Source: Terriglobus albidus (GTDB lineage Bacteria > Acidobacteriota > Terriglobia > Terriglobales > Acidobacteriaceae). From it: DNA of 64,000 nt. Below, piece by piece: positions 10,934-63,672 of the stretch (its first letter is position 1; every line of letters begins with the position of its first letter). Under the pieces are notes generated by a model. That model saw nothing but the letters and a program-made list of their open reading frames with translations. It had not been told where the DNA came from and made no database searches. The DNA lies in the NCBI RefSeq assembly GCF_025685425.1, contig NZ_JAGTAS010000054.1:124001-188000 (forward strand). The letters run 5' to 3'. Position numbers and translations under genes: made by a program.

Positions 10934-11020
10934 GAGCGGGCCTTCAGCCCTTGGATTTCAATATGCCCGAAACCTGGGGCGTTGCCCCAGGCTGATATAG
11001 GACGCGCCTTCAGCGCTATT
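10934..11020. repeat. Intergenic GC palindrome cluster
   Basis: It contains GCGGGCCTTCAGCCC, a hairpin CCTGGGGCGTTGCCCCAGG and GCGCCTTCAGCGC. The same three-part order occurs at 33039-33120. The 10744-11110 gap otherwise contains only the hairpin at 10785 and the PadR promoter region. Confidence 0.6.
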
Positions 11021-40438: not shown

Positions 40439-40852
40439 CTACCCAAGAATGCATTTGTCGGTGAAGACGGCGGCGAAGCCCTGGAAACGGAGATTGCTAT
40501 CCCACGCGTGAGCAAAGCGAAGATGCTGCTCGTGCAACGCGGTGAGGCATAGGTAGTGATCGCGGACGATATTGCGGCTCCACTGCTCGATGCCGAGATA
40601 GTCCTGGCGGTAGTAGTACGGATCGAGGTTAGGACCGCCCACGAAGCCGATTTCGAAGCACATCTCCGGATCGCGCATCGAGTCCCCGTTTTGTTGACCA
40701 TAATGAGCGACGGAGAGAGCCGGAAGCCCAAGAGGACCGGATTCATCTAGCCCTTCGATGACCAGCTCCAGATAGGGAGGATTCTCGATTTTGAGGTAGA
40801 GGCTGGGGCGCCAGCCGCCAGCCTTCTGAAGGATCTCGAGTATGGATTTCAT
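40439..40852 (-). CDS. DUF6908-like protein
   Basis: The protein has 137 residues and is soluble. The segment ALSVAHYGQQNGDSMRDPEMCFEIGF followed by PYYYRQDYLGIEQWS matches my memory of the DUF6908 family found in plasmids and integrative elements. The function is unknown. It overlaps the ArdC-like gene by 4 bp (ATGA), so the two are translationally coupled. Their joint presence marks the start of the mobile region. Confidence 0.75.
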   Translation of the reverse strand: MKSILEILQKAGGWRPSLYLKIENPPYLELVIEGLDESGPLGLPALSVAHYGQQNGDSMRDPEMCFEIGFVGGPNLDPYYYRQDYLGIEQWSRNIVRDHYLCLTALHEQHLRFAHAWDSNLRFQGFAAVFTDKCILG

Positions 40853-41742
40853 GCCGCCACCGCCGTGAGTTCCGCTTCGGTGGCTGTTTCTTCTTCGTCT
40901 TCTGCCGGTGGTTCCAATGCTGCCAGAATCACGCTGGCCGTCTGCTGGATGACTTCCAGACTCTCCGCTAGCAGAGAAGCGTTGCCGTGATAGAGATGGA
41001 TATAGTCAGCGGAAGCCGTACCTGTCTTCAGGCCAAGGGCTTTGCCGACCACGAACGCCACCGCTTCGGCCTCGGTTTCGCGTACTGCCTTCGTCGTTGC
41101 TGTGCGCCGCTCTGCTTTATGTAGCAGTTCATGCGCCGTTTCATGAATGAGCGTCGAGAACTCCTCGGCCTTTGACTGCCCCGGAAGGATGGCAATTCGT
41201 CCGCCGTAACTCACGCCAAGGGCGGGTGCAATCCCCTCGTTGTAGACAAGCTGAATGCCGCGTGAGCGGACAAAGGCAGCCAACCGGTCGATGTTCTCGC
41301 CAACGTCACCGGAGACACGTTCCATCTCGGGAAGGTCTACGCCTTCCGTCTGCGAGATATCGAAGACATAAGCGTTACGGAAACCCACCAGTACGCGGGT
41401 GTTCTGCGTGGTGATATCTTTCTCGGCCTCGTCATCCTTCTTGCGGCGGACGCCGACAATAGGAGCGAGAATCCGGATGCCCTTTTGTCCAGCCGTCACG
41501 GAACGTCCGAGGTTCTTCCATGTCCAGAATCCGGCAACACGGGTTGCTGTAGGCATCTGACGGGCGATCTCCAGCACGTTGCCAAAGCTGTAGTTGTGAA
41601 AACGGCTCATGGCGGTGAGGTAGTTGGTGAGGGCATCGGAGTGTCCGGCCTCTAACTGCTCAATCAGCAGCTTGATGTTGGCGGCGATGAGTTCCTGTTT
41701 CTGGGCAGGCTTCTTGCTGTCGATGGTGTTTGCGGTCTTCAT
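40849..41742 (-). CDS. ArdC-like antirestriction protein with metallopeptidase domain
   Basis: The protein has 297 residues. The N-terminal ArdC single-strand-DNA-binding domain spans about residues 10-130 (FHNYSFGNVLEIARQMPTATRVAGFWTWKNLGRSV, KGIRILAPI). An M78/ImmA-like peptidase domain carries the zinc site HETAHELLH near residue 215 and a downstream Glu in TEAEAVAFVVG. ArdC proteins protect incoming plasmid DNA during conjugation. The ATG at 41742 has AGGAG 8 bp upstream, and longer frames run through a GC-rich leader. It is the first gene of a two-gene operon with the DUF6908-like gene. Confidence 0.88.
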   Translation of the reverse strand: MKTANTIDSKKPAQKQELIAANIKLLIEQLEAGHSDALTNYLTAMSRFHNYSFGNVLEIARQMPTATRVAGFWTWKNLGRSVTAGQKGIRILAPIVGVRRKKDDEAEKDITTQNTRVLVGFRNAYVFDISQTEGVDLPEMERVSGDVGENIDRLAAFVRSRGIQLVYNEGIAPALGVSYGGRIAILPGQSKAEEFSTLIHETAHELLHKAERRTATTKAVRETEAEAVAFVVGKALGLKTGTASADYIHLYHGNASLLAESLEVIQQTASVILAALEPPAEDEEETATEAELTAVAA

Positions 41743-42451
41743 TGTGTTTGCTCCTTTGGCTTTTGCACGTCCGCGTTGAAACGCGGCATGTACATGCCGA
41801 ACGCCTCCTGGCGAAGGCGGGGCGGCAAAGCACAAGGGAGGGGTATCTCCCACCCGGAGCAAAGCGGAGGGCGGAAGCGCAGCGACGGTCTGCACAAGCG
41901 AAGCGCGGAAGACTGTTGGGAAACCCTTGTGCTGCGCCAGGGCAGCGCCCTCAGGGAAGGTTTGGTTTCCGTGTTCGTGCGTGTCAGCGCACAGGATTTA
42001 TAGGGGCGGGCGTTGCGGGGCAGGAACAGGCCCCGCAGAGGTGGAAGCGGAGAACGCGCAGGCGGTCGAAGCGGGGAGGAAACCTCCTCCGCAAGAGCAC
42101 GCAATCCCAGTGAACCGTACCGTTGCTAGGGTGGCGTTCGCGTCGACAGCGCGCGCAATTCCACGTCGATGCCGAGATTTAAAAGGCTCTCCAAGCAGAG
42201 ATTGCATCATCAGACGCATCTGATCTCTTGCGGAATTCGGGCTTTCAGCTTTTCTCTTGCGGAATTCGGGCTTTCAGCTTTGCCTGGATGTCGGACCCTT
42301 TCTGTCTCCATCCCATTTGAGACAGGCAAAGTCTTCAGCCATTGGGGAGTTTGTAGGCAGATCGAATGTGGTCGAACCGTTGAACTCGACAACGACTCGA
42401 CGCGGGCTCAGCCGAAGGGCTAGTTGAAATTGGGATTCAGAGGGGTGAACC
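41743..42451. other. GC-rich leader and intergenic region of the ardC operon
   Basis: About 700 bp without a convincing gene between divergent ardC and the recombinase cassette. The 41790-42110 part is purine-skewed and rich in GCGGAAGCG-like steps. The 42224-42281 part is a tandem duplication (separate entry). It may hold both promoters and one end of the recombinase element. Confidence 0.5.
42224..42281. repeat. Two tandem copies of a 29-bp unit
   Basis: TCTCTTGCGGAATTCGGGC plus CTTTCAGCTT-type sequence occurs at 42224-42252 and again at 42253-42281 with essentially no change. It lies 170 bp upstream of the first recombinase and could be a recombinase binding site or a simple duplication. 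Confidence 0.7.
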
Positions 42452-43696
42452 TTGATTGAGAGCGTTTCAGTCTTTCCGAGTTTTCAGCGACGTCACCGTT
42501 CCGCACCACTGCTGAAGGAACGCGAGGAATATCTGACCCATTTGCTGCGGATTGGCCGAGATGCGAATCATGTTCGATCTGTCGCAGCTTACCTGATCCA
42601 CATCGTCCACATCATGGAACTTACCAATTTGCGCCCCGTCAAACTCGCCGAGATTGAAGAAGCTGGGGCGCGCTGGGCCAGCGACAGAGGACCTGAACGG
42701 AGAGGCCACCGCCCAGAAACTTCTCCGAGGATTTTTACAAAGATTGCTCGGCAATGGATGCTCTTTAAAGGGTTCCTGGCGATTCCGGCCAAGTCATCGG
42801 GGCACTTCGATTCGCATCTCGCCGAATTCAGAAATGCACTTCAATTACGTGGACTGGCTTCTATCACTATAAAAACCTACGTACAACGAACGCAGATTTT
42901 CCTGCGATGGGCGTCGGAGCGCTTCAGAGACCTTCCATCCGTTTCTTTGAGAGACGTAGATGACTTTCTGGCTAGCAACCATAAGGCAGGATGGCGTCTC
43001 TCGACGCTGACAAGTCACTGCATCTCACTACGCGCCTTTTTTATCTTCGCCGAAGAGAGAGGTTTGTGCTCCCCAAGAATCTGGCGGGGTATTGTGGGCC
43101 CACCGATCCCTCAATACGTGGAAGTTCCCAAGGGCCCGAGTTGGGCGAACGTCCGCCGGCTCATTCGCTCAATCAAGGGGAGAACTTCCGCAGAATTGCG
43201 TTCACGGGCCCTGCTGCTTTTGTATTCGATTTACGGGCTCCGTGCCAGCGAAGTGGCGCGGTTACGCATAGGTGACTTCGATTGGCGGAATGAGACTTTC
43301 TGTGTTCACCGAGCCAAACGCGGCGGCATCCAACAATTCCCGATCCAGTATGAGGTTGGCGAAGCCATCCTCGACTATCTTCAACATGGGCGGCCGCAAT
43401 GTGCCTGCAGATTTATTTTTCTCACATTGTTGCCCCCGTATCGCCCCTTGACGAGTGGAGCAATGTGGGACATCGTCAGCAAGCGGATCAAGAACCTAGG
43501 CATCCAGGCGGAACATCGCGGGCCTCATTCGCTCCGCCATGCATGCGCGACCTATCTACTAAAGAGAGGTAGCTCACTGAAGGAGATCGCTGATTTTCTT
43601 GGCCATCGAACTACCAAATCCGTGGCGATTTATGCGAAATACGACCAACGATCCTTACGCAAAGTGGCAGCCTTTAGTCTGGCAGGGATACTGTGA
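42452..43696 (+). CDS. Tyrosine recombinase A1 of a four-gene cassette
   Basis: The protein has 414 residues. The core-binding SAM-like domain covers about residues 115-205 and the catalytic domain the rest. All catalytic positions are present: Arg in YGLRASEVARL, Lys in RAKRGGIQQFPI, HSLRHACAT, GH in FLGHRTTKSV, and the nucleophile Tyr in AIYAKYD. The start is a TTG at 42452 behind GGGGTGA. It overlaps the next gene by 4 bp (GTGA) and has a close homologue two genes on (44774). Overlapping recombinases of this kind occur in RIT elements, which have three genes. Confidence 0.88.
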   Translation: MIESVSVFPSFQRRHRSAPLLKEREEYLTHLLRIGRDANHVRSVAAYLIHIVHIMELTNLRPVKLAEIEEAGARWASDRGPERRGHRPETSPRIFTKIARQWMLFKGFLAIPAKSSGHFDSHLAEFRNALQLRGLASITIKTYVQRTQIFLRWASERFRDLPSVSLRDVDDFLASNHKAGWRLSTLTSHCISLRAFFIFAEERGLCSPRIWRGIVGPPIPQYVEVPKGPSWANVRRLIRSIKGRTSAELRSRALLLLYSIYGLRASEVARLRIGDFDWRNETFCVHRAKRGGIQQFPIQYEVGEAILDYLQHGRPQCACRFIFLTLLPPYRPLTSGAMWDIVSKRIKNLGIQAEHRGPHSLRHACATYLLKRGSSLKEIADFLGHRTTKSVAIYAKYDQRSLRKVAAFSLAGIL

Positions 43697-44781
43697 ACTT
43701 TATTGAGGCCTTGGGCACTTATATAGATCGAAAGCGCTCAGAAGGGCTTTCCTATGGCTGGTCCGCTTGGTATCTTGTCGCCCTAGGTAAGCAGGTTGGA
43801 GATGTTCCCCTCCAATGCATCACCGTCCACGAAGTGATGGAGTTTCTGAATACCCCCAAGACTTCTGCAGGGACTTGGGACGCAAAGTATCGGCTGCTTC
43901 GACGGTTCTTCGATTACTGGCTCGCCCGCAGTGAGATCAGTGCCCCTCCGATGCCGGTCAAGAAAATAATCAAGCAGAAACCATTTAGCCCATATATCTA
44001 CACTCAATCGGAAATCCGTGCCCTGTTGAAGACGACGCGAGGATGTCAGAAGGCCGCCCGATGTTGCATAGACCCCATCACGCTTCGCACCGTCTTGATC
44101 TTTATCTATGGAACAGGAGCTCTCATTGGGGAGGCCGTTCGGCTACTAGGCGAGGATATTGACTTTAAGAAGGGGGTAATCACGATCCGTCATGATCGCT
44201 TCAATCGCGTGCGGGCTATTCCGATCGGTCCGCATCTAAAGACCGTACTGGGAAAATATTCGGCCTCAAAGCGACGAAGAGGCGCAACCAACAAGCACTT
44301 TTTCCTGAACATGAGAGGGGAAGCCCTTAGCATTGCTACCGTCGAGCGTTCATTCAAGAGGCTGCGCCGAATTGCAGGGATTTGTCGGCGCGACGATGCT
44401 AGTTATCAACCGCGCATCTATGATTTGCGGCACACCTTCGCGGTACATCGGATTGCTGCGTGGATGAAGCATGGCGCTGACCTGAATCGCATGCTGCCGG
44501 CGCTCTCGGTCTATATGGGACTAGTGGGCCTCAGAACAACCGAAAAGTACTTGTCGCTCACACCGGAACGCTTTCATGCTCAGCTCATCAAGCTGAGTCC
44601 ACAGCGTGGCATAAAGAGATGGCGCGATGACCCCGCGCTCATGAAATTCCTATCTCAATTGTCAGATGACTCCGGCCATAATCGCAGCCTCAATGCAGGT
44701 GCTTCTACCGCAAGTGACAAAGATCGCCTCTCCGGCGAGACGAAGCGCTCGAAGCAGCGAATGAGGAGGAAGAATGTTTGA
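43693..44781 (+). CDS. Degenerate tyrosine-recombinase-like protein B1
   Basis: The protein has 362 residues with the recombinase fold but damaged active site. Box I reads YGTGALIGEAVRL, so the first catalytic Arg is replaced by Leu. HxLRH reads YDLRH. The GH box reads YMGLVG. The Tyr region TTEKYLSLTPERF remains. It is probably structural, working with the A protein, as accessory recombinases do in RIT or Tn554-like systems. It has a GTG start overlapping A1 by 4 bp, and its stop overlaps A2 by 8 bp. The basic, Ser-rich tail (RLSGETKRSKQRMRRKN) is absent from B2. Confidence 0.85.
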   Translation: MNFIEALGTYIDRKRSEGLSYGWSAWYLVALGKQVGDVPLQCITVHEVMEFLNTPKTSAGTWDAKYRLLRRFFDYWLARSEISAPPMPVKKIIKQKPFSPYIYTQSEIRALLKTTRGCQKAARCCIDPITLRTVLIFIYGTGALIGEAVRLLGEDIDFKKGVITIRHDRFNRVRAIPIGPHLKTVLGKYSASKRRRGATNKHFFLNMRGEALSIATVERSFKRLRRIAGICRRDDASYQPRIYDLRHTFAVHRIAAWMKHGADLNRMLPALSVYMGLVGLRTTEKYLSLTPERFHAQLIKLSPQRGIKRWRDDPALMKFLSQLSDDSGHNRSLNAGASTASDKDRLSGETKRSKQRMRRKNV

Positions 44782-46018
44782 GCAGATTTATCGAAGGCCC
44801 AGAGTCATTGAAAGGCATCGCCAGGCGCCGTTGCGCTTGGCGCGGGAGCAATATCTGAGGCATATGCTCGAAAAGGGTTACACCCACCGAGCATTGACCA
44901 CCTCAGCAGCCTACATGCTCCAGCTTGTCCGCATTCTCGGACTGCATGAGCTTCGTGTGGTTTACGAAGATGAGATTAAACACGCTGCGGAAGTCTGGGC
45001 TGAATATCAGGGCCCATTTCGACATCCTGGACACTGCAACCATCGGTCCCCGCGATCTTTTATCAAGTTCGTCCGCGCGTGGCTTCGGTTCCATGGCAAA
45101 TTGGCCCTTCCATCTGTTCCTCCCTTCCTCGAACAAACGCAAGCATTCTCGCACTCGCTACAAGTCAACTATGGTCTCGCCGAAGCAACCGTTCGGGGCT
45201 ATTCCAATCGGGCTCAGGCATTCTTGACGTGGTTGGCAGCGCAGGGTGGAGACTTAGAAGCGGTGTCTGTGGCCGATATTGACAAGTTCATCCTTGCAAA
45301 GCGTGTTGAAGGATGGACCCCCCGAGGTATCGGCAACCAATGTCAGGCATTGCGAAGTTTCTTCCGTTTTGCCGAGACGCGCGGCTGGTCCGCACCGAAT
45401 CTCGCGTTAGCCATCCGAATTCCGCGTATCCCGAAAGACAAACCGTATCCCGTTGGGCCCACTTGGCCGCAAGTTCGACAAATCATAAAGCTAGCAGAAG
45501 GATGCGAACCTGAGCATCTTCGAGCCAAGGCTCTTCTGCTGCTGTTCACCGTTTATGGGCTCCGCAGCGGCGAGGTCATTCACCTGCGTCTGGAGGACTT
45601 TGATTGGCGGAGCGAAGTATTCACAGTTCGGCGCTCCAAGCACGCCGGCACGCAACAATATCCGATTCAGTACGAAGTGGGAGAGGCGATTCTGAAATAC
45701 CTTCAATATGCCCGACCACAAGTCGAGAACCGGCACGTCTTCCTTGGAGAACGACGCCCTTGGGGACCGCTTCTGCATACTACTGTTTGGAGGACCGTGG
45801 CGAAGCGGTTGCGGATACTTGGAATAGAGCTCGATCATCGTGGCCCTCACGCTTTACGTCACGCATGTGCAACCCGGCTGCTCAAGAAGGGCTCGTCCCT
45901 TAAAGAAATTGCTGACTTCCTAGGACATCGCGACACAAGATCTGTTGGCATCTATGCGAAATGCGATATCGCTGCTCTTCGGAAGGTTGCCGCATTCCGC
46001 CTTGCTGGGTTGCAATGA
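44774..46018 (+). CDS. Tyrosine recombinase A2
   Basis: The protein has 414 residues, the same length as A1, and is clearly its paralogue (shared GSSLKEIADFLGHR and LRKVAAF at the end). All catalytic positions are intact: Arg in YGLRSGEVIHL, Lys in RRSKHAGTQQYPI, HALRH, FLGHRDTRSV, and Tyr in GIYAKCD. It starts at an ATG within the last codons of B1 and overlaps B2 by 4 bp, so all four genes form one tightly coupled operon. Confidence 0.88.
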   Translation: MFEQIYRRPRVIERHRQAPLRLAREQYLRHMLEKGYTHRALTTSAAYMLQLVRILGLHELRVVYEDEIKHAAEVWAEYQGPFRHPGHCNHRSPRSFIKFVRAWLRFHGKLALPSVPPFLEQTQAFSHSLQVNYGLAEATVRGYSNRAQAFLTWLAAQGGDLEAVSVADIDKFILAKRVEGWTPRGIGNQCQALRSFFRFAETRGWSAPNLALAIRIPRIPKDKPYPVGPTWPQVRQIIKLAEGCEPEHLRAKALLLLFTVYGLRSGEVIHLRLEDFDWRSEVFTVRRSKHAGTQQYPIQYEVGEAILKYLQYARPQVENRHVFLGERRPWGPLLHTTVWRTVAKRLRILGIELDHRGPHALRHACATRLLKKGSSLKEIADFLGHRDTRSVGIYAKCDIAALRKVAAFRLAGLQ

Positions 46019-46989
46019 AACTCCAAGAGGGAATCAAAACCTATATCGAAGCCAGGCAAGCCGAAGGTACGCCCTGGGAGAAAGGCGCGCAGAGCCTGCG
46101 TTCCCTCTACCGTCACATTGGTGATGTGCCCTTGGCTCGAATCTGTGTCAACGATGTTGCTCCCTTTCTCGATGGCCCTATGACCGCCGCAGCTACCTGG
46201 TACAACAAGTATTGCGTACTGCGCCAGTTCTTCTGTTACTGGAAAGTACGCAATGAGATTTATGGGTTGCCGCTGCCTCCATCAAGGCGTTTTCCAGTAC
46301 AGACGTTTGTCCCCCATGTCTTCTCGCGGACTGAACTACACCGACTGTTGATAGCGGCGGGATTCACTCAACGAGGAATGAACTCCGCAATCGGCGCTCA
46401 CACCTTTCGCACCTTGCTTCTGTTTCTCTATGGAACCGGCGCGGGGCTCAGCGAAGCGGTTCAACTGGAACGCCGTGATGTGGACTTTCGCAGGAGGCGA
46501 GTCACCCTCCGCAGTAGCTTATGCCGTCGCGTGCGAGAGATTCCGATCGGTCCCGATCTCTATGACATTCTGCTGAGATACCGTCGAACGCATCACCTAA
46601 AGAATGCGATGAGAGCCCCGCAATTCTTTTTGACTAAAGATGGATCCCAGATTAAAGCGGGCACGGCGAACAAGACTTTCCGAAGGGTGCGCAAGAAGGC
46701 CGGCATTGCTCGTTGCGATGGAGCACAATACCAGCCACGAATACAGGACCTGCGATACACATTTGCTGTCCATAGGTTGACAGCATGGTTTAGACACGGA
46801 GCGGACATGGGGCGAATGATCCCTGCGCTTTCCGCTTACCTAGGGCAAAGCGACCTGAGCGTGGCGGAACGTTATCTACGTTTGACCCCAGAACGGTTTC
46901 GGGCTCAACTCAACAAGCTCAGTCCCAAACAAGGCAAGAGGAGATGGCGGGACGACGCCGCATTGATGAAGTTTCTTGACAGCCTGTGA
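46015..46989 (+). CDS. Degenerate tyrosine-recombinase-like protein B2
   Basis: The protein has 324 residues from the ATG at 46015 that overlaps the A2 stop (ATGA). It is a paralogue of B1 (shared FAVHR..AW...GAD..RM.PALS.Y.G and YLRLTPERFRAQL). The active site is more eroded than in B1: box I YGTGAGLSEAVQL has Gly for Arg, HxLRH reads QDLRY, and the GH box reads YLGQSD. The Tyr in AERYLRL remains. Loss of the same residues in both B copies suggests long-term maintenance of a non-catalytic partner, not decay. Confidence 0.85.
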   Translation: MKLQEGIKTYIEARQAEGTPWEKGAQSLRSLYRHIGDVPLARICVNDVAPFLDGPMTAAATWYNKYCVLRQFFCYWKVRNEIYGLPLPPSRRFPVQTFVPHVFSRTELHRLLIAAGFTQRGMNSAIGAHTFRTLLLFLYGTGAGLSEAVQLERRDVDFRRRRVTLRSSLCRRVREIPIGPDLYDILLRYRRTHHLKNAMRAPQFFLTKDGSQIKAGTANKTFRRVRKKAGIARCDGAQYQPRIQDLRYTFAVHRLTAWFRHGADMGRMIPALSAYLGQSDLSVAERYLRLTPERFRAQLNKLSPKQGKRRWRDDAALMKFLDSL

Positions 46990-47006
46990 TGGGAGAGGAC
47001 AGGTCT

Positions 47007-47468
47007 CTAAAGATTGCGCGCGTCTAGAGTTGGCCCCACATTTTTCTTGATCAGTTCAGGCCCGGCGGACAATTCCTCTAGGCCAGCTCGTCGCAGCGTT
47101 ACTTTAAAGGTAAGAAATACCGATACGATCTCGTCGTGGCGGGGATCGTCGTCGAGCCCATCCCCTAGCCCGGACCAATAGGCCTTGTCGACATCAGAAA
47201 GACATGGCAAGACACACTCCAATATTTCTTCGCTGGAAGGGCCCTCAAACAGTTCGCTCAAATGCTCGCCCGTGATCCCTGAAAGGTCTGTTTCCAATGC
47301 CATGCGAGCGATACGTCGCAGCGTTGGCGGGGACGATGCAATTGCCTGTAGGAGAATTTTCTGCCTCATCGTGAATTCAGCCATCTCCTTCGGTTGAATT
47401 TGGATATCGAAGTCAGCGAAGAAGCGAAACGCTATCGGATCGGGAAAATGTGGTAAGGAAATCTCCAT
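47007..47468 (-). CDS. Hypothetical protein, 153 aa
   Basis: This is an acidic soluble protein of unknown function. The ATG at 47468 has GAGGA about 6 bp upstream. Its central region (LQAIASSPPTLRRIARMALETDLSGITGEHLSELFEG) is helical and Leu-rich. It has no signal or membrane segment and no recognised family. It is convergent with the recombinase cassette (17 bp between stops) and may be element cargo. Confidence 0.65.
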   Translation of the reverse strand: MEISLPHFPDPIAFRFFADFDIQIQPKEMAEFTMRQKILLQAIASSPPTLRRIARMALETDLSGITGEHLSELFEGPSSEEILECVLPCLSDVDKAYWSGLGDGLDDDPRHDEIVSVFLTFKVTLRRAGLEELSAGPELIKKNVGPTLDARNL

Positions 47469-47569
47469 AAGGGGTCCTCAAAGACATCGCTGTATTCAGT
47501 ACCACTCGGTATTAACCCGGTACGCCGTTCACCGGTCATCATCTCTTAACGGAACTTTCAGATGCAGAT

Positions 47570-48781
47570 TTAAGGGTGATTAGGCTGTATCTGCAAGTCG
47601 GCCATCAGCAGGGGTTTGCCGGTAGGCTTGGTACTACCTCCTAGTGGCTCTGCCGTTACAAAAACTTTATTCAGATGGGCCAGGGTCTTCGTGTCGTTGA
47701 AACGCAGCACCCATCTTTTCTTCGTATCCTCCTGATAGAACAGGCCTAGGCTGACATTTTGCTGTTCGTCCACATTTCCCCAAGCCTGGAAAGCGACCGT
47801 TCGTTTGAGCCCTGGCTGTTTGTCCAAGTCGTACCCATAGAAAACTAGGGATTTATCTTTCGTATAGAAGATGCGTCCGAAAGGTCTGGAAGTCTTTCCG
47901 GTCTGCGTGACGTCCAAAATGTCGGCAATGTAAAGGTCCCGCGCGCCAATTAACTCGCGGATATCGCGATCACGCGCCAGCAGCTCTCTATCAAAAGCCA
48001 ACGTCCTCTCCTTCTCTTCCAGCACCCCGGAAAGCTCATTGAGCCGGGCTTCGAGAATGGTGAGCCGTAATTGGTACTGTCTAGACTCGTTCGCGGTTGA
48101 TGTGGTTTTTTCCCGGAGAGACTCTACTTGTTGAAGTGCGGCTGCGAGTTGCCGGTCCATTGCGTCTCTTTCGCCGCTGATTCTCTGTCTTTCCTTTTGC
48201 TCAACCTGCAGATGTTCGCGAATTTTAGTTAGGTGTCTATTCGCCTGATTACCCTCTTTGGTGGCATTGTCCAAGGCGGCACGCAGATCGGTGATCTCTT
48301 TCTGCGCCGTCTGAAGTTGAGGTCTTAGGTCCGGAGGAGTCGGTCTGATCACGGGAGACGCATCCTGCCGCACCGTCGCGACGTTCGTAGGAAACGTCGA
48401 CGGGTGCTTCTCTGCCGCGAAATGAAATCCGAGCCATCCTATGCCCGCGATCCCAGCGGCGATCGCCAAAGACGACACCATCTTGAAGTATCTGGGAGGG
48501 ACTCTCTTTGTTGAAGAAGATTGACACGTATCCAATGCACCCATCAATCGCTTTTCCGCAGCACTGAGCGCCTCAGACCATTCGCTCTCGTCCTCCGCAG
48601 CGGCCGCAGCCATCGCGGGTACAACCTCGTCTGCGATTTGCCGATATTCGGCAAAAAGCTCTTGGCAGGACTCACAATAGGCGAGGTGCACCTGTAATAG
48701 CGCCCACTCTTCCTCGGTAAGTTCACCAGACGGATAGAGGGCACAGAGGCCAACGAACTCGTCATGCCATTGGGTGTTCAT
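47570..48781 (-). CDS. Anti-sigma-type membrane protein with coiled coil
   Basis: The protein has 403 residues. The N-terminus carries a zinc-finger anti-sigma motif (HLAYCESCQELF, H-x3-C-x2-C, near residue 35). One membrane segment (MVSSLAIAAGIAGIGWLGFHFA) is near residue 105-125. A long coiled coil (residues about 155-270) follows, and a C-terminal beta-rich domain (KTSRPFGRIFYTKDKSLVFYGYDL...RWVLRFNDTKTLAHLNKVFVTAEP) resembles an anti-sigma-K-type C-terminal domain. It should hold the sigma factor encoded 21 bp upstream at the membrane and release it on an extracytoplasmic signal. Confidence 0.85.
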   Translation of the reverse strand: MNTQWHDEFVGLCALYPSGELTEEEWALLQVHLAYCESCQELFAEYRQIADEVVPAMAAAAAEDESEWSEALSAAEKRLMGALDTCQSSSTKRVPPRYFKMVSSLAIAAGIAGIGWLGFHFAAEKHPSTFPTNVATVRQDASPVIRPTPPDLRPQLQTAQKEITDLRAALDNATKEGNQANRHLTKIREHLQVEQKERQRISGERDAMDRQLAAALQQVESLREKTTSTANESRQYQLRLTILEARLNELSGVLEEKERTLAFDRELLARDRDIRELIGARDLYIADILDVTQTGKTSRPFGRIFYTKDKSLVFYGYDLDKQPGLKRTVAFQAWGNVDEQQNVSLGLFYQEDTKKRWVLRFNDTKTLAHLNKVFVTAEPLGGSTKPTGKPLLMADLQIQPNHP

Positions 48782-48802
48782 CGGCTCTGCTCTCCGATGT
48801 GG

Positions 48803-49510
48803 CTATTGTCTACCAGTTCTCTCACTTTGCGGCGGCTTCCCTCGAAATATGTGATTGCGCAATCGTTGAATGCCCCGGTAATAGAGACTCCGAACATTGC
48901 CGTAATTTTGGCCAATATTCTCCGCGATCTCTCGGAACGAGTAGCCTTCAAAGAAATGAAGCTCTATCACCCGTACCTGTTCTGCAGTCAATTCGTCACG
49001 CAGTTTAGTCAATAGGGCATGACCGTCAACCGTGTCACCAAGATTGGGGCAAGGGTTCACAAATGTCCTGTCTTCAAGGAGCTCCTGCCGGTCGTAATAA
49101 CACCGCGACTGCAAGTAGCGGCGTCTGTCGATGGCGCGGTGGTATGCCATCTGGATAATCCAGGACGCTGCCGTTCCCTTACTGCAATCGAATCGTGAGG
49201 CCTTCTGAAAAATGTAAATGAATATATCCTGACGCAAATCTTCAGCTTCAGATTCATCCTTTAGAATTCGCCGCGCAACGTTATAGACCGCTCGTCCATG
49301 CCTTCTTAGCAGCAGAGCAAGTGCGGCTCTCGCGCCGTTAGCCATCTGACCAACAAGAGCTTCGTCTGACATTTCGTCGGAGACTGGCGATTCTCTTTCG
49401 CTCGTGAGAGGCACACTTCCTACGGCTGCGCTTTCGTCCGAACGAACGCTCTTTGCCTGAGCGATTCCCACCATCGACCCCGAGAAGTATGCGGCATCTT
49501 TTGGAATCAC
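48803..49510 (-). CDS. ECF RNA polymerase sigma factor
   Basis: The protein has 235 residues. Region 2 (LLRRHGRAVYNVARRILKDESEAEDLRQDIFIYIFQKASRFD, SWIIQMAYHRAIDRRRYL) and region 4 (LTAEQVRVIELHFFEGYSFREIAENIGQNYGNVRSLYYRGIQRLRNHI) are complete. It starts at a GTG with GAGGA upstream; the first 45 residues are poorly conserved and a start nearer region 2 is possible. It forms an operon with the anti-sigma gene. Targets cannot be inferred, though the pair sits inside the mobile region. Confidence 0.88.
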   Translation of the reverse strand: MIPKDAAYFSGSMVGIAQAKSVRSDESAAVGSVPLTSERESPVSDEMSDEALVGQMANGARAALALLLRRHGRAVYNVARRILKDESEAEDLRQDIFIYIFQKASRFDCSKGTAASWIIQMAYHRAIDRRRYLQSRCYYDRQELLEDRTFVNPCPNLGDTVDGHALLTKLRDELTAEQVRVIELHFFEGYSFREIAENIGQNYGNVRSLYYRGIQRLRNHIFRGKPPQSERTGRQ

Positions 49511-49949: not shown

Positions 49950-52691
49950 CTACATTGAAATGCCGTGGCCGTATTCCTTTTGCTGCCTAGCCTCCGGCTG
50001 CGCCGCCAAGCCATTTTCCAAGTTGACTTTAGGCGTATGGGCGCTCTGGTGTGAAACTTCGTGGCCGAGCGCGGCGGGTAGTTTTTCGCGGTCGTTGGTA
50101 AATATTTGCGCGTCGTGCGCTCCTCGTGAAACGGCCACATAGGCCATGCGGTTATTAAGCAGGTCTTTGGCTCCGAGCTCGGTATCAACGTGGACTAGCA
50201 CTCGCTCTGCGGTCTGTCCCTGGCTGGAGTGGCTGGTGACCGCATAACCATGATCTAGATGTGGATTGCGTACCGGGTCGATCTCCATGGAGCGACCACC
50301 GTCCATCCGTAAGCTCATCCGGCCTTCGTTGATCCGCTCTACTGTGCCCATTTCGCGGTTGGCGATCTTTAGATCGTTGTCAGGCGCAGTGAACTGGATG
50401 CGATCCCCTACGGAGAACGCCCGCTCCTCCTCGCGGTAGACCGACACACCCTGCTGGCGGCGCGGATCATAGCTCTGATTCCGGCCATCGAATAACGAAA
50501 CCGTGATCCGGTTGCGCGCAGCATCGATGCAGATCACGCGAGCGTATTCGCCTTTCCGGATTCCGGTTTCCTTCGAGCCTCGGCTGTAACGCAAAACATC
50601 GCCGACCTCATACTTTTCTGCCCAGGTGCGGGCGGCTCCGGTAAGGTCCTGGCGCGGCACCAGCGTCCGCATCCGGTGTTCTTCTAGGTTCACAATGCCA
50701 CGCTGTTGCAGCTCGGCATGGATACGGCCATTGATCTCCGTGCGGGAGCGGTTGTCAGGCGAGACCACCAACGTGCTCTCGGAAGTCTTTGCATACTCCT
50801 TCGCGATGGCGCCGATCCGCTCCTCGCGGCCTTTGAACTCATGCACGCGGCCCTGCTCGTCTAGCTTCTTGACCGCAGCGCCAACCTCTCCACGCGCGAG
50901 TTGCTCAACCACATGGCGCAGTTCCGGATCTTTCTGGCGCACAATCTGATCGAGCGAGATAGTCTTCATCCCCGCCTGCTGCAACTGCGCAAACGGCCTT
51001 CCGGCCTGTACCGCTTCATGCTGCCTGCGATCGCCCACCAGCAGAACCCGGTCGTTGGGATGCAGGCGAGTTAGGAACTCGTGCATCTGCTTGGTGGAAG
51101 CCAGGGAAGATTCGTCTAGCACGTACAGACGTCTCTCGCCGGTGTCAGGCTTCTGCCCACGCGCCAAATGCATTTGCAAGGTGGAAGTCTCAATTCCGGC
51201 TTCGCCCAGCTTCTGCGCTGATCGAGACGTAGGCGCGAAACCCTCCAAGGTATAGCCCTCACGTTCTGCGCCTTCGCGCACAACCGCGAGCGTCGTGGTC
51301 TTACCCGCGCCGGCAACGCCGTCCATGCCTACGATCTTCTCCCGCGCCGCAAAGATCTCCTCCACGGCCTGACGCTGGGAAGTATTCAGTTCGGGATGGC
51401 AGTCAATCGTATCGAACCGCTCGCGGCCCTCCAGCAGCATAGGACGGTTCTGTTCATTGCTCCGATGAAGGATGCTGACGATCTCTTTTTCCGTGCGGAT
51501 CATCTCAGCGGTGGTGATCTCCGGGCCACGCACGGATTCCGGGGCCTGTCGAAACTCGCCGGACTCGAACCTCCGCTCGATCTCTCGCCGCACTTGGCTG
51601 TACGTTACTTCACCCATGCCACGCTGTAGGGCGGTTTCATAGAGAGCGCGCCGGTCCTGAACAGCAGACTTCTCGAACAGGTGATCGCGGGCGTACGTCA
51701 CTGCCCGCTGAGCTGCGTTCTCCGGCTCATAACTTTGGCGCTGCTCATGTGCCTTAGCCTGAGCAATAACACGATCCGCCTGATCACCATACTGCGCAGC
51801 CAGTTCACGATGCTGTCGCAGTACCTCGTCAGGCGACAGCAGTTCCTTGCTGTCACGCGTGTGATGTGCCGCCACCTGTGCGGCTCCTGCTCCATCGAGT
51901 CCCTGCTCGCGGAGATGATCCTTGATTTGTTCGCGGCGCGGGCTTGAGGCTTCGAGATACTCCTTCGTATAGCCTTTGATCTCCGGCTGCCCGTACTTAC
52001 CTGGTTCAATCTCGTAGCCCAGCCTCTGCAACCGAGACGCCAGTTCCGCTCGGTAGATCGATGTGGCGTAGTGTTGCGAGGCGTACAGCTCGTGGGATTG
52101 AACGGAGCGTGTCTGTCCATTGTCGCGCTCGGTGACATTGAAGATGACCGCGTGGGTGTGGAGTTGCGGTGCGGCGTAGCCGTCCACGGGCCGGGCGGTA
52201 TCGTGTTCGAAGGTCGCGGCAACAAACCTGCCCGTCGTCTCCGGTGCATGGACGTTCCCAATCCGCGCCTGGGTGTACCGCTCCAGTTCCTCCAGAGCTA
52301 CGCGCACACTCTCGCGGTGCGCAACCCGAACACGATTATCCCCACCCACAAGCGCAGTCAAAGAAACTGACTTCGGAGCAGAGAAAGTTGCATCCCATCC
52401 AGCACGGTGCTCGACGCTCGTGACTTCTTTACCGTTCTTGCCCTCGTAAGTCCGGGACACTTGATGGCGCACAAGTTGCGCCTCGGTGAACGGATGTTGG
52501 CCTTCGGTCAACCTCGCGAAGTGCTCAGAACCGACCTCACCTTGCAGTCCCCACTGATTGGCAAGCTTACCCAACCACTCGCTGTGCCCCTGCTGGTCCC
52601 GGCTCCAGTAGTTCTGCCGCTCGGACGCAAACTCTCGCTCATGGTACGTGCGTACCTGTCCGGCTGACAGCGGCTTGGAGAGCGTCAGCAT
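49950..52691 (-). CDS. MobF-family conjugative relaxase (TrwC/TraI-like)
   Basis: The protein has 913 residues. The relaxase domain spans about residues 1-300, with N-terminal tyrosines Y16 and Y28 in the spacing used by TrwC. It has WDATFSAPKSVSL and the histidine triad region APQLHTHAVIFN. A SF1 helicase domain has Walker A GVAGAGKTTT near residue 458, VLDESSLAS, and a late motif YAVTSHSSQGQTAERV. It nicks oriT, stays bound to the strand and unwinds it during transfer. It is shorter than plasmid TraI but has both activities. It lies downstream of the coupling-protein operon. Confidence 0.92.
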   Translation of the reverse strand: MLTLSKPLSAGQVRTYHEREFASERQNYWSRDQQGHSEWLGKLANQWGLQGEVGSEHFARLTEGQHPFTEAQLVRHQVSRTYEGKNGKEVTSVEHRAGWDATFSAPKSVSLTALVGGDNRVRVAHRESVRVALEELERYTQARIGNVHAPETTGRFVAATFEHDTARPVDGYAAPQLHTHAVIFNVTERDNGQTRSVQSHELYASQHYATSIYRAELASRLQRLGYEIEPGKYGQPEIKGYTKEYLEASSPRREQIKDHLREQGLDGAGAAQVAAHHTRDSKELLSPDEVLRQHRELAAQYGDQADRVIAQAKAHEQRQSYEPENAAQRAVTYARDHLFEKSAVQDRRALYETALQRGMGEVTYSQVRREIERRFESGEFRQAPESVRGPEITTAEMIRTEKEIVSILHRSNEQNRPMLLEGRERFDTIDCHPELNTSQRQAVEEIFAAREKIVGMDGVAGAGKTTTLAVVREGAEREGYTLEGFAPTSRSAQKLGEAGIETSTLQMHLARGQKPDTGERRLYVLDESSLASTKQMHEFLTRLHPNDRVLLVGDRRQHEAVQAGRPFAQLQQAGMKTISLDQIVRQKDPELRHVVEQLARGEVGAAVKKLDEQGRVHEFKGREERIGAIAKEYAKTSESTLVVSPDNRSRTEINGRIHAELQQRGIVNLEEHRMRTLVPRQDLTGAARTWAEKYEVGDVLRYSRGSKETGIRKGEYARVICIDAARNRITVSLFDGRNQSYDPRRQQGVSVYREEERAFSVGDRIQFTAPDNDLKIANREMGTVERINEGRMSLRMDGGRSMEIDPVRNPHLDHGYAVTSHSSQGQTAERVLVHVDTELGAKDLLNNRMAYVAVSRGAHDAQIFTNDREKLPAALGHEVSHQSAHTPKVNLENGLAAQPEARQQKEYGHGISM

Positions 52692-53736: not shown

Positions 53737-55710
53737 TCATTCGATTCCCTTACTTTCATCCCAACTGAACCCCTCCCGCTTCCCGATAGGAGGCACTTCC
53801 TCCAGAGGCAAAACCGCCTGCGCCGGCTTCTTCTTTGTCTCTGGGGCCTTCACAGTAGCCGCAGTCTTCACTTCATCCACTTTGCGCGGCAGAGGCTGTT
53901 CTCTAATCCGTTCCAGGAACTCCGGCTCTTTGTTGTGTTTCTTTGCCAGCCGGAACCTTGCTTGGATAACCTGATTCTCCAACTTGATAAAACCTGTGAG
54001 CGGCAGGAGTCCCGCGATCTCGGACGCCATGACGAGCGGCTTGGTAGCAATCTCCATCGCAAAGCTCTTCCTGGAACCAAATATCCGCATGCTTCGAGAC
54101 TCTTTCAAGCGCTCAACCTCGATCTCGCCGATAGCTTCGGAGACCCATTTGGCCGCACGCGGCTCGGAGGTCTTCAAAAAGATCTTCGTCGCAGGCTGGG
54201 AGAGCATGGCTTCTGCATCCTGGCCGTAACGCTTCTCCATTTGGCTGCGTCCCTGCACGGCTAGGACGACAGGATTTCCGTACTTGCGATTCTCGGTCAC
54301 AGCGGTATGGAGTTGCGGCAGCTTGTTCAAGCTGGCCAACTCATCCAGCACAAACCAGACAGGCTTTACCGCAGGGTCTTCGCAGTAGCCCATCATGCGC
54401 AAGACGAACAAATCGAGCCATACCGAATGCAGCGGCAGCACCTTCTCCCGGTAGGCAGCAGAAGAGGTTAGGAAGACCCAGCGTTTACGCTCCTTATACC
54501 ATTCCGCCGTCGCAAAGGTCGGCCTCGTGTGCTCCCACTCGGGCAACAGCTCCAGGCTGTCGGCCACCATGTTCAGGCTGGAGAGCACCCCCGCCCGCTG
54601 CGCAGGAGCGCCCGGATCGAGCAATGCCGCCAGTGGCGTTCCCTTGACTGCGGCCTCTATATAAGAAGGGTCAGCCATCATTCGTAGGATGTCCCTTGGC
54701 TGCAGCCTGTTCCTCAGCAAATGGGCCAACACCCGGCGCGGTGCATCAGTGAAAAACGCCTTCTCATATTCCTTTTCCGGCAGCATCGCTACGGCGATGG
54801 TGGTGGCCGTTTCGGGCCGGTCAATCTCCTTTCCCAAGCTCCAGTACGGGCATCGCCGGTCAAGCGGATTCAGAATCAGATCGCCTCGCTTTGGGTTGTA
54901 AAACTCACCTACGAAGTCCATTGCCGGGTCGTACACAATGGCACTCTCGCCGCGGTCTTCAACCTGGCGAAGCAGTTGCCGGATGGCGGAACTTTTGCCG
55001 GAGCCAGTGTCCCCCATCAGCAGGATGTGGCTGGCGTCCAGCCGGCGCGGGATGCGGAAACCACGAGCCGGAAGGAATCTGCCAAGTGTACCCTCGCGCT
55101 CCATCTGAAAGCGGATACCGCCATCTCGAGAGCTGCGCCGCGCCGCCATCAGTTGGGGGCCCTTGGTGCGGCGTCCATGGCGTTGTTCCTGCTGCTGGCT
55201 GACCCGAAGTTTATGGCCAAAGAAGAGCCATAGGCCATACAGAAACAACACTGCTGCCGTCAGATAAAGAATGGGCCGAAGGTAGATCAGCCATGGGCTG
55301 TCGCCGTCATAAACCGTCTCCCGCAGGTATGCTTCCAACTCCCTCGCACGAACCTTGCCGGGCGGCATCATCATCACACCGCGCCAGCCTTCTGCGAGCG
55401 CTTTCGGACTGAGAGCGATGGGATGTTGCGCATCCGGTCCCTTCACCGCATCATCGGGCAACAATGGTGCCGGCTTCCGTCCCGGAGCCGTTTTCTCGAC
55501 GTAGCGAACGGTAGTCAGTGTTCCTGGGTAACGGCTCAACGTAGAGCAGGCGGCATAGGTTCCGAGGTAGTGGATCTGGACCGGATTCATGGTCCAGTTG
55601 AGCCAAAGCATACCCGGAAGAATCAGCAAAAATGGACCTACGGCGAAGAGCAAAATTAGCCAAAGAAACCATCGGCCCCGGCTGGGAAAACCCATCGGTT
55701 CCGCGCTCAC
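53737..55710 (-). CDS. Type IV coupling protein (VirD4/TraD-like)
   Basis: The protein has 657 residues. Two N-terminal membrane helices (LWLILLFAVGPFLLILPGMLWL and YLTAAVLFLYGLWLFFG) anchor a RecA-like ATPase. Walker A is GDTGSGKSSA near residue 235 and Walker B is PVWFVLDELASL near residue 450. It joins the relaxosome to a type IV secretion channel and pumps DNA. No channel genes are in the window, so a helper system is implied. Its start overlaps the ribbon-helix-helix gene by 4 bp. Confidence 0.92.
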   Translation of the reverse strand: MSAEPMGFPSRGRWFLWLILLFAVGPFLLILPGMLWLNWTMNPVQIHYLGTYAACSTLSRYPGTLTTVRYVEKTAPGRKPAPLLPDDAVKGPDAQHPIALSPKALAEGWRGVMMMPPGKVRARELEAYLRETVYDGDSPWLIYLRPILYLTAAVLFLYGLWLFFGHKLRVSQQQEQRHGRRTKGPQLMAARRSSRDGGIRFQMEREGTLGRFLPARGFRIPRRLDASHILLMGDTGSGKSSAIRQLLRQVEDRGESAIVYDPAMDFVGEFYNPKRGDLILNPLDRRCPYWSLGKEIDRPETATTIAVAMLPEKEYEKAFFTDAPRRVLAHLLRNRLQPRDILRMMADPSYIEAAVKGTPLAALLDPGAPAQRAGVLSSLNMVADSLELLPEWEHTRPTFATAEWYKERKRWVFLTSSAAYREKVLPLHSVWLDLFVLRMMGYCEDPAVKPVWFVLDELASLNKLPQLHTAVTENRKYGNPVVLAVQGRSQMEKRYGQDAEAMLSQPATKIFLKTSEPRAAKWVSEAIGEIEVERLKESRSMRIFGSRKSFAMEIATKPLVMASEIAGLLPLTGFIKLENQVIQARFRLAKKHNKEPEFLERIREQPLPRKVDEVKTAATVKAPETKKKPAQAVLPLEEVPPIGKREGFSWDESKGIE

Positions 55711-62797: not shown

Positions 62798-63672
62798 TAC
62801 TTGAGCTCCTCTTCGAACTTGGTCTTGTTGTATTCGGCGTTCGGAGTAAAAGAGATCAAGACTTGTTTTTGGGCAGGAAATCCTGGAGGCCCGGCATATA
62901 CGACCGATGGTATTTTCAAGCCTTGGATCCCTTGCCAATCCGAGAAGTCGTATTTCCGCCAAGAAATTGAAGTCGACTGTGAGAAGCTGGGAGGTCGAAG
63001 GCTTACAGACAGAGGAAGGTGGGTTTCCGTCGAAATCGTCCAGAGCTGTTCCAGTACATATGGATCGCCGCTTTTGCGATGCCAATAGATGTCAACACAT
63101 TGCCTAGCGCTGGCCTCACATTGTGATGCAGCCTCTTCACGCACAAGATAGTTCTCATTCTGCAAAACAATTTGCGCAGCAACGGAGGGGAGGTGCGTCG
63201 CGATTACGCGTGCTTGATCAAGTTCTGCGATATTAGCAGGCGCATCTCCACCTTGAAACGACCGCTGCGACGAACTGTCATGATCTTTAGGGGAATTCGA
63301 CTGTCCTTTTATCCCTCTTAAATATTTGGTGTTGCCTGTATGCCAGTCATCGGTTAGCAGGAAATCCTTGGCGCTGTCTCCACTTCCTACGCGAAAATGG
63401 ACTTCGGAACTCTTCACGTGTTGCCAGGCAGATTCCCCGCCGGTATATACGATCACCTCTTTTAGGGCCTTTTGTGCAGCCGGATCAGAAGTGGTGTCAG
63501 GCGGCAAAACTGCTTTGCCAGCAAGAGCTTTCGGGGGCCGTGGCGGGAAAACAATCACGTTTTGAGTCTGTCCACTAACGATTGATTGAGAGCAGAACGA
63601 AAGCAGGAATAAGGCAAGTGCGCTACAAGGCTTCAAGGTACATCTCCACTGATTGAAGACACGGAGGTTCAT
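62797..63672 (-). CDS. Secreted protein encoded upstream of the RHS-EndoU gene
   Basis: The protein has 291 residues with a signal peptide (PCSALALFLLSFCSQSIVSG). The mature part is beta-rich (ESAWQHVKSSEVHFRVGSGDSAKDFLLTDDWHTGNTKYLRG, KIPSVVYAGPPGFPAQKQVLISFTP) and resembles outer-membrane-lipoprotein-sorting-like folds seen in LolA-type proteins, though I cannot name the family. A TAATG stop-start overlap couples it to the RHS gene, which suggests a role in export or presentation of the toxin. The ATG at 63672 is preferred over the TTG at 63681. Confidence 0.75.
   Translation of the reverse strand: MNLRVFNQWRCTLKPCSALALFLLSFCSQSIVSGQTQNVIVFPPRPPKALAGKAVLPPDTTSDPAAQKALKEVIVYTGGESAWQHVKSSEVHFRVGSGDSAKDFLLTDDWHTGNTKYLRGIKGQSNSPKDHDSSSQRSFQGGDAPANIAELDQARVIATHLPSVAAQIVLQNENYLVREEAASQCEASARQCVDIYWHRKSGDPYVLEQLWTISTETHLPLSVSLRPPSFSQSTSISWRKYDFSDWQGIQGLKIPSVVYAGPPGFPAQKQVLISFTPNAEYNKTKFEEELK

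Follow-up and report, generated by a model that had tools for sequence, protein, structure and literature searches.

The genome of Terriglobus albidus contains four tyrosine recombinase (YR) genes which overlap one another in the order A1-B1-A2-B2, and the question raised by this locus is where such a quartet comes from and what it could be for. All positions below are those of the window, namely the whole stretch of 64,000 nucleotides that was analysed.

Four overlapping genes

The quartet as a whole occupies 42452-46989, and its genes are the following:

42452..43696, + strand: A1, RitA-like tyrosine recombinase; TTG start, 414 aa, R-K-H-R-H-Y intact
43693..44781, + strand: B1, RitB-like body with a RitC-like tail and a further extension of about 38 aa; 362 aa; in its site R1, K, H2 and H3 are substituted, R2 and Tyr retained
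44774..46018, + strand: A2, RitA-like tyrosine recombinase; 414 aa, R-K-H-R-H-Y intact; AF2 mean pLDDT 87.6
46015..46989, + strand: B2, RitB-like body with a RitC-like tail; 324 aa; in its site R1, K, H2 and H3 are substituted, R2 and Tyr retained; AF2 mean pLDDT 85.2

All four proteins match PF00589 (Phage_integrase), with E-values from 4.3e-14 to 4.2e-28. The initial annotation had placed four YR open reading frames at these positions, with A1 and A2, both of 414 aa, as one pair of paralogues, B1 and B2 as another, and an overlap of 4 or 8 bp at every junction. The ORF list and the PF00589 matches bear this out: the identity is 48% between A1 and A2 and 46% between B1 and B2, and the overlaps are 4, 8 and 4 bp, given a B2 start at 46015 (the mechanical ORF call puts this start at 45961 instead).

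Quartets and lone pairs in other genomes

Blocks of the A-B-A'-B' type, which the initial annotation had suggested looking for, do exist elsewhere: five are complete, counting the window, and two are partial. Among 299 genomes of the class, complete blocks with a similar spacing are present in G040, G099 and G263, and the fifth one was found in Granulicella sp. L46, where the frame of A1 is broken ahead of the catalytic end; this makes the window plus four other genomes of the family. The frequency is at least 4 of the 299 class genomes, the window included, with the best 6 candidates per genome scored. As for the partial blocks, L062 has A2-B2 on a contig which begins within A2 (A2 being in two frames), while L073 has the last 133 aa of A2 followed by B2, internal to its contig. 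The overlaps are of 4, 8 and 4 bp in three of the five complete quartets. The genes of the window, which share 59-67% (A1), 56-64% (B1), 65-75% (A2) and 68-79% (B2) identity with their orthologues, are nearer to these than A1 is to A2 or B1 to B2. Five complete blocks rule out a chance tandem of unrelated elements.

We also found 15 A-B pairs without a second pair. In pairs and quartets alike, B lies directly downstream of A, with a 4-bp overlap in those inspected, and this two-gene unit occurs in Terriglobia, mostly Acidobacteriaceae. A viral origin was considered and rejected: the 7 viral contigs found are 6 ordinary RIT trios and 1 fragment. The best phage records have 28% identity.

Relationship with RIT elements

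The window quartet has in common with RIT elements (ritA-ritB-ritC) a RitA-like A, a RitB-like B, the gene order, the short overlaps of 4-8 bp that are a RIT trait, and the association with plasmids and ICEs. A2 can be aligned over its full length with plasmid RitA, for instance at 36% over 414 aa on pBPHY02. Two core-binding domains are a feature of RitA (PMC8138268), and A2 appears to have them, according to this alignment and to a model which predicts two helical bundles (residues 9-106 and 119-202) before the catalytic domain; Pfam matches the second bundle only. The plasmid relatives listed are RIT-like, and 8 loci were checked in detail, 2 of 10 (pHG1 and Ca. Megaera, with split genes) being left out. 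In these 8 plasmid RITs, A and B overlap by 4 bp in 6 and B and C by 8 bp in 5. Matches of the outgroup trios include plasmid RITs and a remnant of a RitC-like gene on pHG1. The latter plasmid is one that is named in the RIT literature.

There are also differences. The quartet has two A-B pairs instead of one trio, and no RitC gene was found beside the five complete quartets or the 15 pairs (some of the flanking stretches are short). In RITs the catalytic motif is retained in each of the three YRs, whereas the B site is degenerate here: all six residues are present in 0 of 28 pair or quartet B rows, against 14/15 trio rows and 8/8 plasmid RIT rows; in other words 22 of the 23 RitB controls are intact and the remaining one has a single change. 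Each pair or quartet B lacks at least one catalytic residue, with R1 lost in 25/28, K in 26/28 and the last H in 26/28. The site of A is intact in 39 of 41 rows (D_G199_A and Q_L073p_A2, which are too short, were left out of this table and of the trees). Since Tyr and R2 are retained in 27 of the 28 B rows, some residual activity of B, or a donation of its Tyr in trans, may be conceivable. For Edaphobacter lichenicola M8UP22, a carrier of the quartet, versus dw_441, dN/dS is 0.14 for A1, 0.14 for B1, 0.11 for A2 and 0.09 for B2; these ratios, which come from one close pair, indicate purifying selection on the genes tested, the degenerate B included.

The helix found only on RitC in RITs is found here on B. 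An HMM of the RitC tail scores at least 9 bits for 24 of 28 pair or quartet B proteins, for 0 of 15 trio B proteins and for 1 of 14,000 shuffles. In the AF2 model of B2, a terminal helix is predicted at residues 315-323, where the confidence is lower. The tail model and the table for C were built from 7 RitC rows, 9 of 16 being left out (end of stretch or stop). Neither the lost residues of B nor the RitC-type tail had been mentioned in the initial annotation.

From these sequences we concluded that quartets derive from RIT elements yet are not RITs. The quartet had already been set apart from three-gene RIT elements, and this distinction holds.

The carrier element and the ends of the quartet

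The following features surround the quartet:

40849..41895, - strand: ArdC-like antirestriction protein of the element
42090..42103, no strand: stop of homology of the flank upstream of ArdC, versus 4 of 6 ICE relatives
42370..42412, + strand: 43-bp block that precedes A1, with a similar block ahead of 3 of the 4 other quartets
49950..52691, - strand: MobF/TrwC relaxase-helicase, element backbone, outside the quartet
53737..55710, - strand: type IV secretion coupling protein of the TrwB/TraD kind, with a homologue near 5 of 5 quartets

Besides the TrwC relaxase and the TrwB/TraD coupling protein, a protein matching Phage_integrase is encoded some 37 kb beyond B2. A separate integrase gene of 472 aa is found near 4 of 5 quartets, and 6 of 15 pairs have a relative of the relaxase, the coupling protein or the integrase in their vicinity. 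Judging from these neighbours, the quartets appear to reside on ICE-like elements. Seven loci of this element family, including a second copy in the genome of the window, have their own integrase and no intact quartet or pair, which means that the ICE can do without the module.

Could the 4.5-kb block be a self-mobile transposon of the RIT type, which moves itself and has merely accumulated in ICEs? Similarity among most quartets spans approximately from the A1 start to the B2 stop and no further. Placement relative to like genes also differs: the quartet lies between ArdC and the relaxase in the window, whereas in M8UP22, dw_441 and L46 its neighbours on the two sides are the coupling-protein gene and the integrase. 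Fragments are found as well, of B in the ArdC-relaxase interval of M8UP22, of the 3' part of B2 just before the relaxase in G060, and of A1 elsewhere in G060. All this would suit a mobile block; the ends do not. Inverted repeats, for which the initial annotation had proposed a test, flank 10 of 14 RIT trios but none of the 18 A-B pairs and quartets (blastn, E below 0.005; the null gives 4/306 at E below 0.01), and neither the repeat finder run on the window nor two blastn tests revealed terminal ones for pairs or quartets. The RIT half-site TTATGT-N11-TTATGT has no full match near pairs or quartets, with at most 9 of 12 positions. RitC is absent and B is degenerate. No second copy of the quartet was found in the genome of the window, nor two quartets in any one of the genomes searched. 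Moreover M8UP22 and dw_441 have a common left flank for 3 kb, which shows inheritance in place. Self-mobility thus weighed appears unlikely.

Direct repeats around the quartet were absent in 4 of 5 quartets; in dw_441, a direct repeat of 93 bp (81%) was rejected as a target duplication, its copies being pieces of an adjacent gene, one that ICE relatives conserve. Neither a recombination substrate nor an att site or a product came to light. The term "integration machine" used in the initial annotation is not borne out, given the separate integrase at 4 of 5 quartets and the lack of terminal inverted repeats and att site. In the comparison with relatives, homology of the flank stops near 42,100 versus G284, G159, G230 and M8UP22, but earlier versus G111 (42,032) and C39 (42,057). 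Possibly 42090..42103 is the left border of a variable slot between ArdC and the relaxase, or the mere end of constraint. In Chal12 a like block lies 9 kb from ArdC, and copies of it occur in other ICE loci; hence the stretch around 42,100 may be conserved backbone, not an insertion border.

The 43-bp block has 25, 27 and 29 matches of 43 in other quartets, two of the three loci being near-identical. It is a candidate operator, promoter or recombination site, and the fact that 4 of 5 quartets have it ahead of A1 would also suit another explanation, according to which the B proteins or the whole complex are DNA-binding regulators and do not recombine. There is a precedent in MrpR of prophage SPbeta, a YR fold in which, in the accessible part of PMC10516654, most catalytic residues are lost and the kept Tyr seems crucial for DNA binding; the retention of Tyr and R2 in B recalls this. 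MrpR is a phage repressor, and that part of the source describes it without an active YR as operon partner, whereas here B is directly downstream of A, and A1 and A2 retain the full catalytic set. We hold a purely regulatory role to be improbable.

Origin of the quartet

In the trees, trios are split from pairs and quartets with a support of 100/100. The two halves of the quartet, A1B1 and A2B2, are each monophyletic, and A1B1 is sister to the stand-alone pairs D_AB60 and D_Chal12 (100/99). A single clade of A1B1 and A2B2 is rejected with p-AU 0.00028; for the same clade with D_AB60 and D_Chal12 included, p is 0.035, which is weak. This rejection of a duplication within the quartet indicates that two distinct A-B pairs were joined into one operon. 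The halves may lack a fully shared history, as the subtrees of Q1 and Q2 place AB60 and L46 in conflicting orders. In the B tree, the long branches of G163 and G269 were flagged and are possibly misplaced. Of the "duplicated two-subunit unit" of the initial annotation, the two-subunit A-B unit stands, since lone pairs exist, while simple duplication does not. A tandem duplication of one A-B pair in this lineage, without any sharing-out of functions between the copies, would explain the homology of 46-48% between the halves, but is very improbable in view of the sister pairs, of both AU tests and of the purifying selection on the four genes (one close pair).

A proposed function

We propose that the quartet is a RIT-derived, ICE-resident heteromeric YR with a catalytic A and a non-catalytic B, and we give this reading a probability of about 0.5. 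The recombinase probably acts as a complex in which active and inactive subunits are combined. Taking the trio as the presumed ancestral state, A1 and A2 would cleave strands, while B1 and B2 would be DNA-binding architectural partners completing the synaptic tetramer by means of the docking helix. As half of the protomers look inactive, each complex would exchange only a single pair of strands, and resolution of the Holliday junction would be left to replication or to enzymes of the host. Each of the two A-B pairs would have a different half-site or end to recognise. It is probably the ICE that profits from the reaction, through a second route of integration or excision, dimer resolution or rearrangement; self-transposition of the 4.5-kb block seems a less likely purpose. 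More tentatively, and with considerable doubt on our part, the synaptic tetramer could consist of four different YR chains, catalytic A1 and A2 and pseudo-enzymes B1 and B2, the left and the right site each being read by its own A-B pair, so that exchange would be obligatorily one-sided.

Several known systems resemble this one in part. XerC/XerD is a heteromeric YR pair, and Xer structures, together with those of lambda Int, are among the nearest solved folds. Both proteins of XerCD are catalytic. The quartet differs in that its B is not canonical and its genes are on a mobile element. In Tn554 (tnpA-tnpB-tnpC) and relatives, two adjacent YRs are required together, as stated in the accessible text of PMC3414803, whereas the quartet proteins belong with Rit families. 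A precedent for non-catalytic YR partners is given by GinC and Tfp (PMC10214605, in the part available): GInt (ginABCD) and SE, the strand-biased circularizing elements (intA-tfp-intB-srap), have multi-YR operons in which this one member has no catalytic residues (available parts of PMC10214605 and PMC5385486). B1 and B2 are likewise YR-like members without the catalytic motif, but these inactive members are RitB-like, ends of the GInt/SE type were not found for the quartet, and no clear srap or ginD counterpart is seen among ORFs of at least 80 aa beside the window quartet. In the window, no such ORF starts on the + strand in 46989-48763; other quartets have some + strand ORFs downstream.

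Finally, the need for three recombinases to cleave the four strands of a RIT has been called difficult to understand (PMC3414803, accessible text). Pairs and quartets would be a natural experiment in this respect, in which RitC is gone, its helix is on B, and the catalysis of B has been dispensed with. The prediction is that the complex would need the helix of RitC and not its catalysis, and the division of labour in multi-YR systems would become testable. A recombinase with four chains and an asymmetric action, if real, could also be attractive as a tool for changing DNA in one direction.

Four overlapping recombinase genes

The initial annotation described four overlapping tyrosine recombinase (YR) genes in the order A1-B1-A2-B2 at 42452-46989, in two paralogous sets; we found the four open reading frames (ORFs) there on the + strand, each with a Phage_integrase match, and the junctions overlap by 4, 8 and 4 bp if the start of B2 is taken as 46015. 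A1 and A2 are 48% identical and B1 and B2 46%, so that the paralogy holds as well. The window is contig C55, 124001-188000, of the 6.1-Mb genome G000, in which no second copy of this quartet was found. Two 29-bp copies, 90% alike, lie in tandem upstream (42217-42274), while 47007-49510 (-), downstream, encodes a 153-aa ORF, an anti-sigma-like protein and an ECF-type sigma factor. A sigma/anti-sigma pair is also found downstream of an A-B pair in genome G287, and anti-sigma N-terminal fragments lie upstream of A1 in Edaphobacter lichenicola M8UP22 and in dw_441. Other features of the window are:

10973-11017 (+): Acido-Lenti-1 RNA, 44.9 bits
35425-40142 (-): two overlapping long ORFs in different frames, of 840 aa (RHS repeat) and 848 aa (no Pfam match), perhaps one interrupted gene
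57179-63085 (-): RHS-repeat protein of 1968 aa with a bacterial EndoU nuclease C-terminus

Recurrence of quartets, pairs and trios

The search for further A-B-A'-B' blocks that had been proposed gave A- and B-profile matches in that order in G000, G040, G099 and G263, hence in at least 4 of 299 class genomes, at most the best 6 candidates per genome being scored. From a scan of named genome contigs we obtained 15 loci, among which those of dw_441 (L059), M8UP22 (L060) and AB60 (L063) are the very contigs that carry the blocks of G040, G099 and G263. A fifth complete block occurs in Granulicella sp. L46 (L061), with the A1 frame broken near its catalytic end. L062 has A2-B2, its A2 truncated by the contig start and split over two frames; L073, inside a contig, has no more of A2 than its final 133 aa, followed by B2. 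The 4/8/4 overlaps, computed from coordinates, are common to the window, M8UP22 and dw_441; they are 4/38/4 in AB60, and L46, with A1 broken, has a 41-bp gap ahead of A2 and a 4-bp A2/B2 overlap. Identity to the window genes is 59-67% for A1, 56-64% for B1, 65-75% for A2 and 68-79% for B2.

Single A-B pairs without a third YR gene occur in other genomes, chiefly of the window's family, and a few come from other Terriglobia (Sulfotelmatobacter, Terriglobia bins, G199); AB60 has both the quartet and an A1B1-type pair. A-B-C trios occur in other genomes of the class and in one within the family (G066). These trios are RIT-like by sequence, since 522 plasmid records match their C protein at E up to 1e-40, among them pHG1, which PMC3414803 mentions in connection with RITs. 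In eight plasmid trios, A and B overlap by 4 bp in six and B and C by 8 bp in five. Among 396 genomes sampled from the phylum (E up to 1e-55), only the window's family gave B matches that span the tail; in two genomes outside it, and in G066 inside it, the match reaches only the trio-type end.

Origin of the quartet

In a concatenated A+B tree of 41 rows, trios are separated from pairs and quartets at 100/100. The A1B1 halves (5 rows, 100/99) have as sister the pairs of AB60 contig 2 and Chal_Metagen_Bin12 (100/99), and the A2B2 halves (6 rows) form another clade at 100/100. A single clade of both halves is rejected (p-AU 0.00028), and one that also includes these two pairs weakly so (p-AU 0.035). 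Separate A and B trees give the same clades, with the deeper order unsettled and, for B, a warning on two long branches. The block had been read as a duplicated two-subunit unit: the A-B unit stands, as stand-alone pairs exist, but its duplication within the quartet does not. Because the single clade is rejected, the trees indicate that the quartet is two already distinct pairs joined, most simply once. The halves conflict as to whether AB60 or L46 branches first, which counts against a wholly shared history.

Catalytic residues and the tail of B

The A proteins have the complete R-K-H-R-H-Y set in 39 of 41 rows, the exceptions being the pair of G163 and the broken A1 of L46. The set is also complete in 14 of 15 trio B proteins (G216 has Q replacing H2), in 8/8 plasmid RIT B and in 7/7 trio C. 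None of the 28 pair and quartet B rows has all six residues: R2 and the tyrosine are each kept in 27, H2 in 12, R1 in 3, and K and H3 in 2 each. Nevertheless the B genes are not decaying, because dN/dS between M8UP22 and dw_441 is low (B1 0.14, B2 0.09; A1 0.14, A2 0.11); two comparisons of stand-alone pairs gave 0.05-0.15 for A and B, with synonymous sites nearer saturation.

A profile built solely from the last 20 residues of seven trio RitC proteins reaches at least 9 bits in 24 of the 28 B rows, the others being G269 (5.3 bits), G163, G199 and L062. Scores do not exceed 0.5 bits in 15 trio B or 1.2 bits in 8 plasmid RIT B, and 1 of 14,000 shuffled sequences reached 9 bits. The profile is imperfect even on RitC, two of eight plasmid RitC scoring just 3.1 and 3.6. 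AF2 models of B2 (pLDDT 85) and A2 (pLDDT 88) are both YR folds, with Xer, lambda Int and Tn1549 Int as nearest structures; that of B2 has a separate terminal helix (315-323) in a lower-confidence stretch (block means 58-71).

Carrier element and ends

All five quartets have nearby a relative of the window's type IV coupling-protein gene, and four have a TrwC relaxase, in two pieces in AB60. A 472-aa integrase (Phage_integrase) accompanies the window's quartet and three others, with 84-88% identity in these three; matches to it, some fragmentary, occur in 15 of 299 class genomes. As it lies some 37 kb beyond B2, we only infer that the window's integrase belongs to the same ICE-like element as the quartet. 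Another 15 loci of this family, picked by best coupling-protein matches and including several short contigs, showed no intact A or B; seven of them have the integrase, and among the seven is a second copy within the window's genome. That genome holds a second family element (C39, 36000-95999; L097-L099) with relaxase 94%, coupling protein 90% and integrase 94% identical, and with no A or B match. One locus (L084, 1585-8056) has a GTPase-associated system (DO-GTPase1, GASH, GAP1-N1, calcineurin-like phosphoesterase) between relaxase and integrase. Element-gene relatives (relaxase, coupling protein or integrase) lie in the stretch examined around 6 of 15 pairs.

In the window the block lies between ArdC and the relaxase. 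M8UP22, dw_441 and L46 have it between the coupling-protein gene and the integrase, and in AB60 it comes after the coupling-protein gene. In Chal12 the ArdC-relaxase interval is occupied by a pair, with 9 kb of other DNA on the ArdC side, and in M8UP22 by a B fragment; it is near-empty in G159, with about 30 bp from a conserved ArdC-upstream block to the relaxase end. No ArdC was found in G060, in which a B2 fragment lies directly ahead of the relaxase and an A1 fragment elsewhere.

Inverted repeats lie outside ritA and ritC in 10 of 14 trios (E < 0.005; two trios are near-copies in one genome), several with TTATGT-N11-TTATGT spacing. In L047, L053, L057 and L148 the inverted repeats contain TTATGT as a direct repeat with a 17-bp period, one copy in L057 ending in C; it is likely a recombinase binding unit. 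The same test gave flanking inverted repeats in none of 18 pairs and quartets (best E 0.04). Left-flank homology of the window ends at 42,090-42,103 against four of six relatives and earlier against the other two. Upstream of ArdC, an 81-bp stretch (42030-42110), palindrome-like at its right end, has counterparts elsewhere in the element family, several other loci matching it over 49-72 bp at 84-89% identity. Four of five quartets share a similar 43-bp stretch upstream of A1; two of the four are near-identical loci, and plain blastn recovers only the L46 match. Since it is kept although the window's block has another position in the ICE, part of the DNA upstream may move together with the quartet genes.

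Proposed mechanism

In the YR synaptic tetramer, one pair of strands is exchanged and then the second. Because A is catalytic and B has lost R1, K and H, strand chemistry would be carried out by A protomers, and B protomers would provide DNA binding and the helix contact given by RitC in RITs. By analogy with MrpR (PMC10516654), the retained tyrosine of B may serve DNA binding. With only A protomers doing chemistry, the junction would have to be resolved by replication or by the host, a fate akin to the copy-out routes discussed for SEs in PMC10214605. A1 and A2 are 35-42% identical in two N-terminal regions and 58-61% in the catalytic domain; orthologues share this trend more weakly, so that it only hints at different targets.

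Our literature search turned up no account of RIT derivatives of two or four genes whose B protein is of this kind, though the main RIT paper (Ricker 2013) could mention one. Since the terminal helix is described in PMC8138268 as found in RitC and absent from all other YRs, a RitB-like body with a RitC-type helix is a departure from the RIT recombinases described there.
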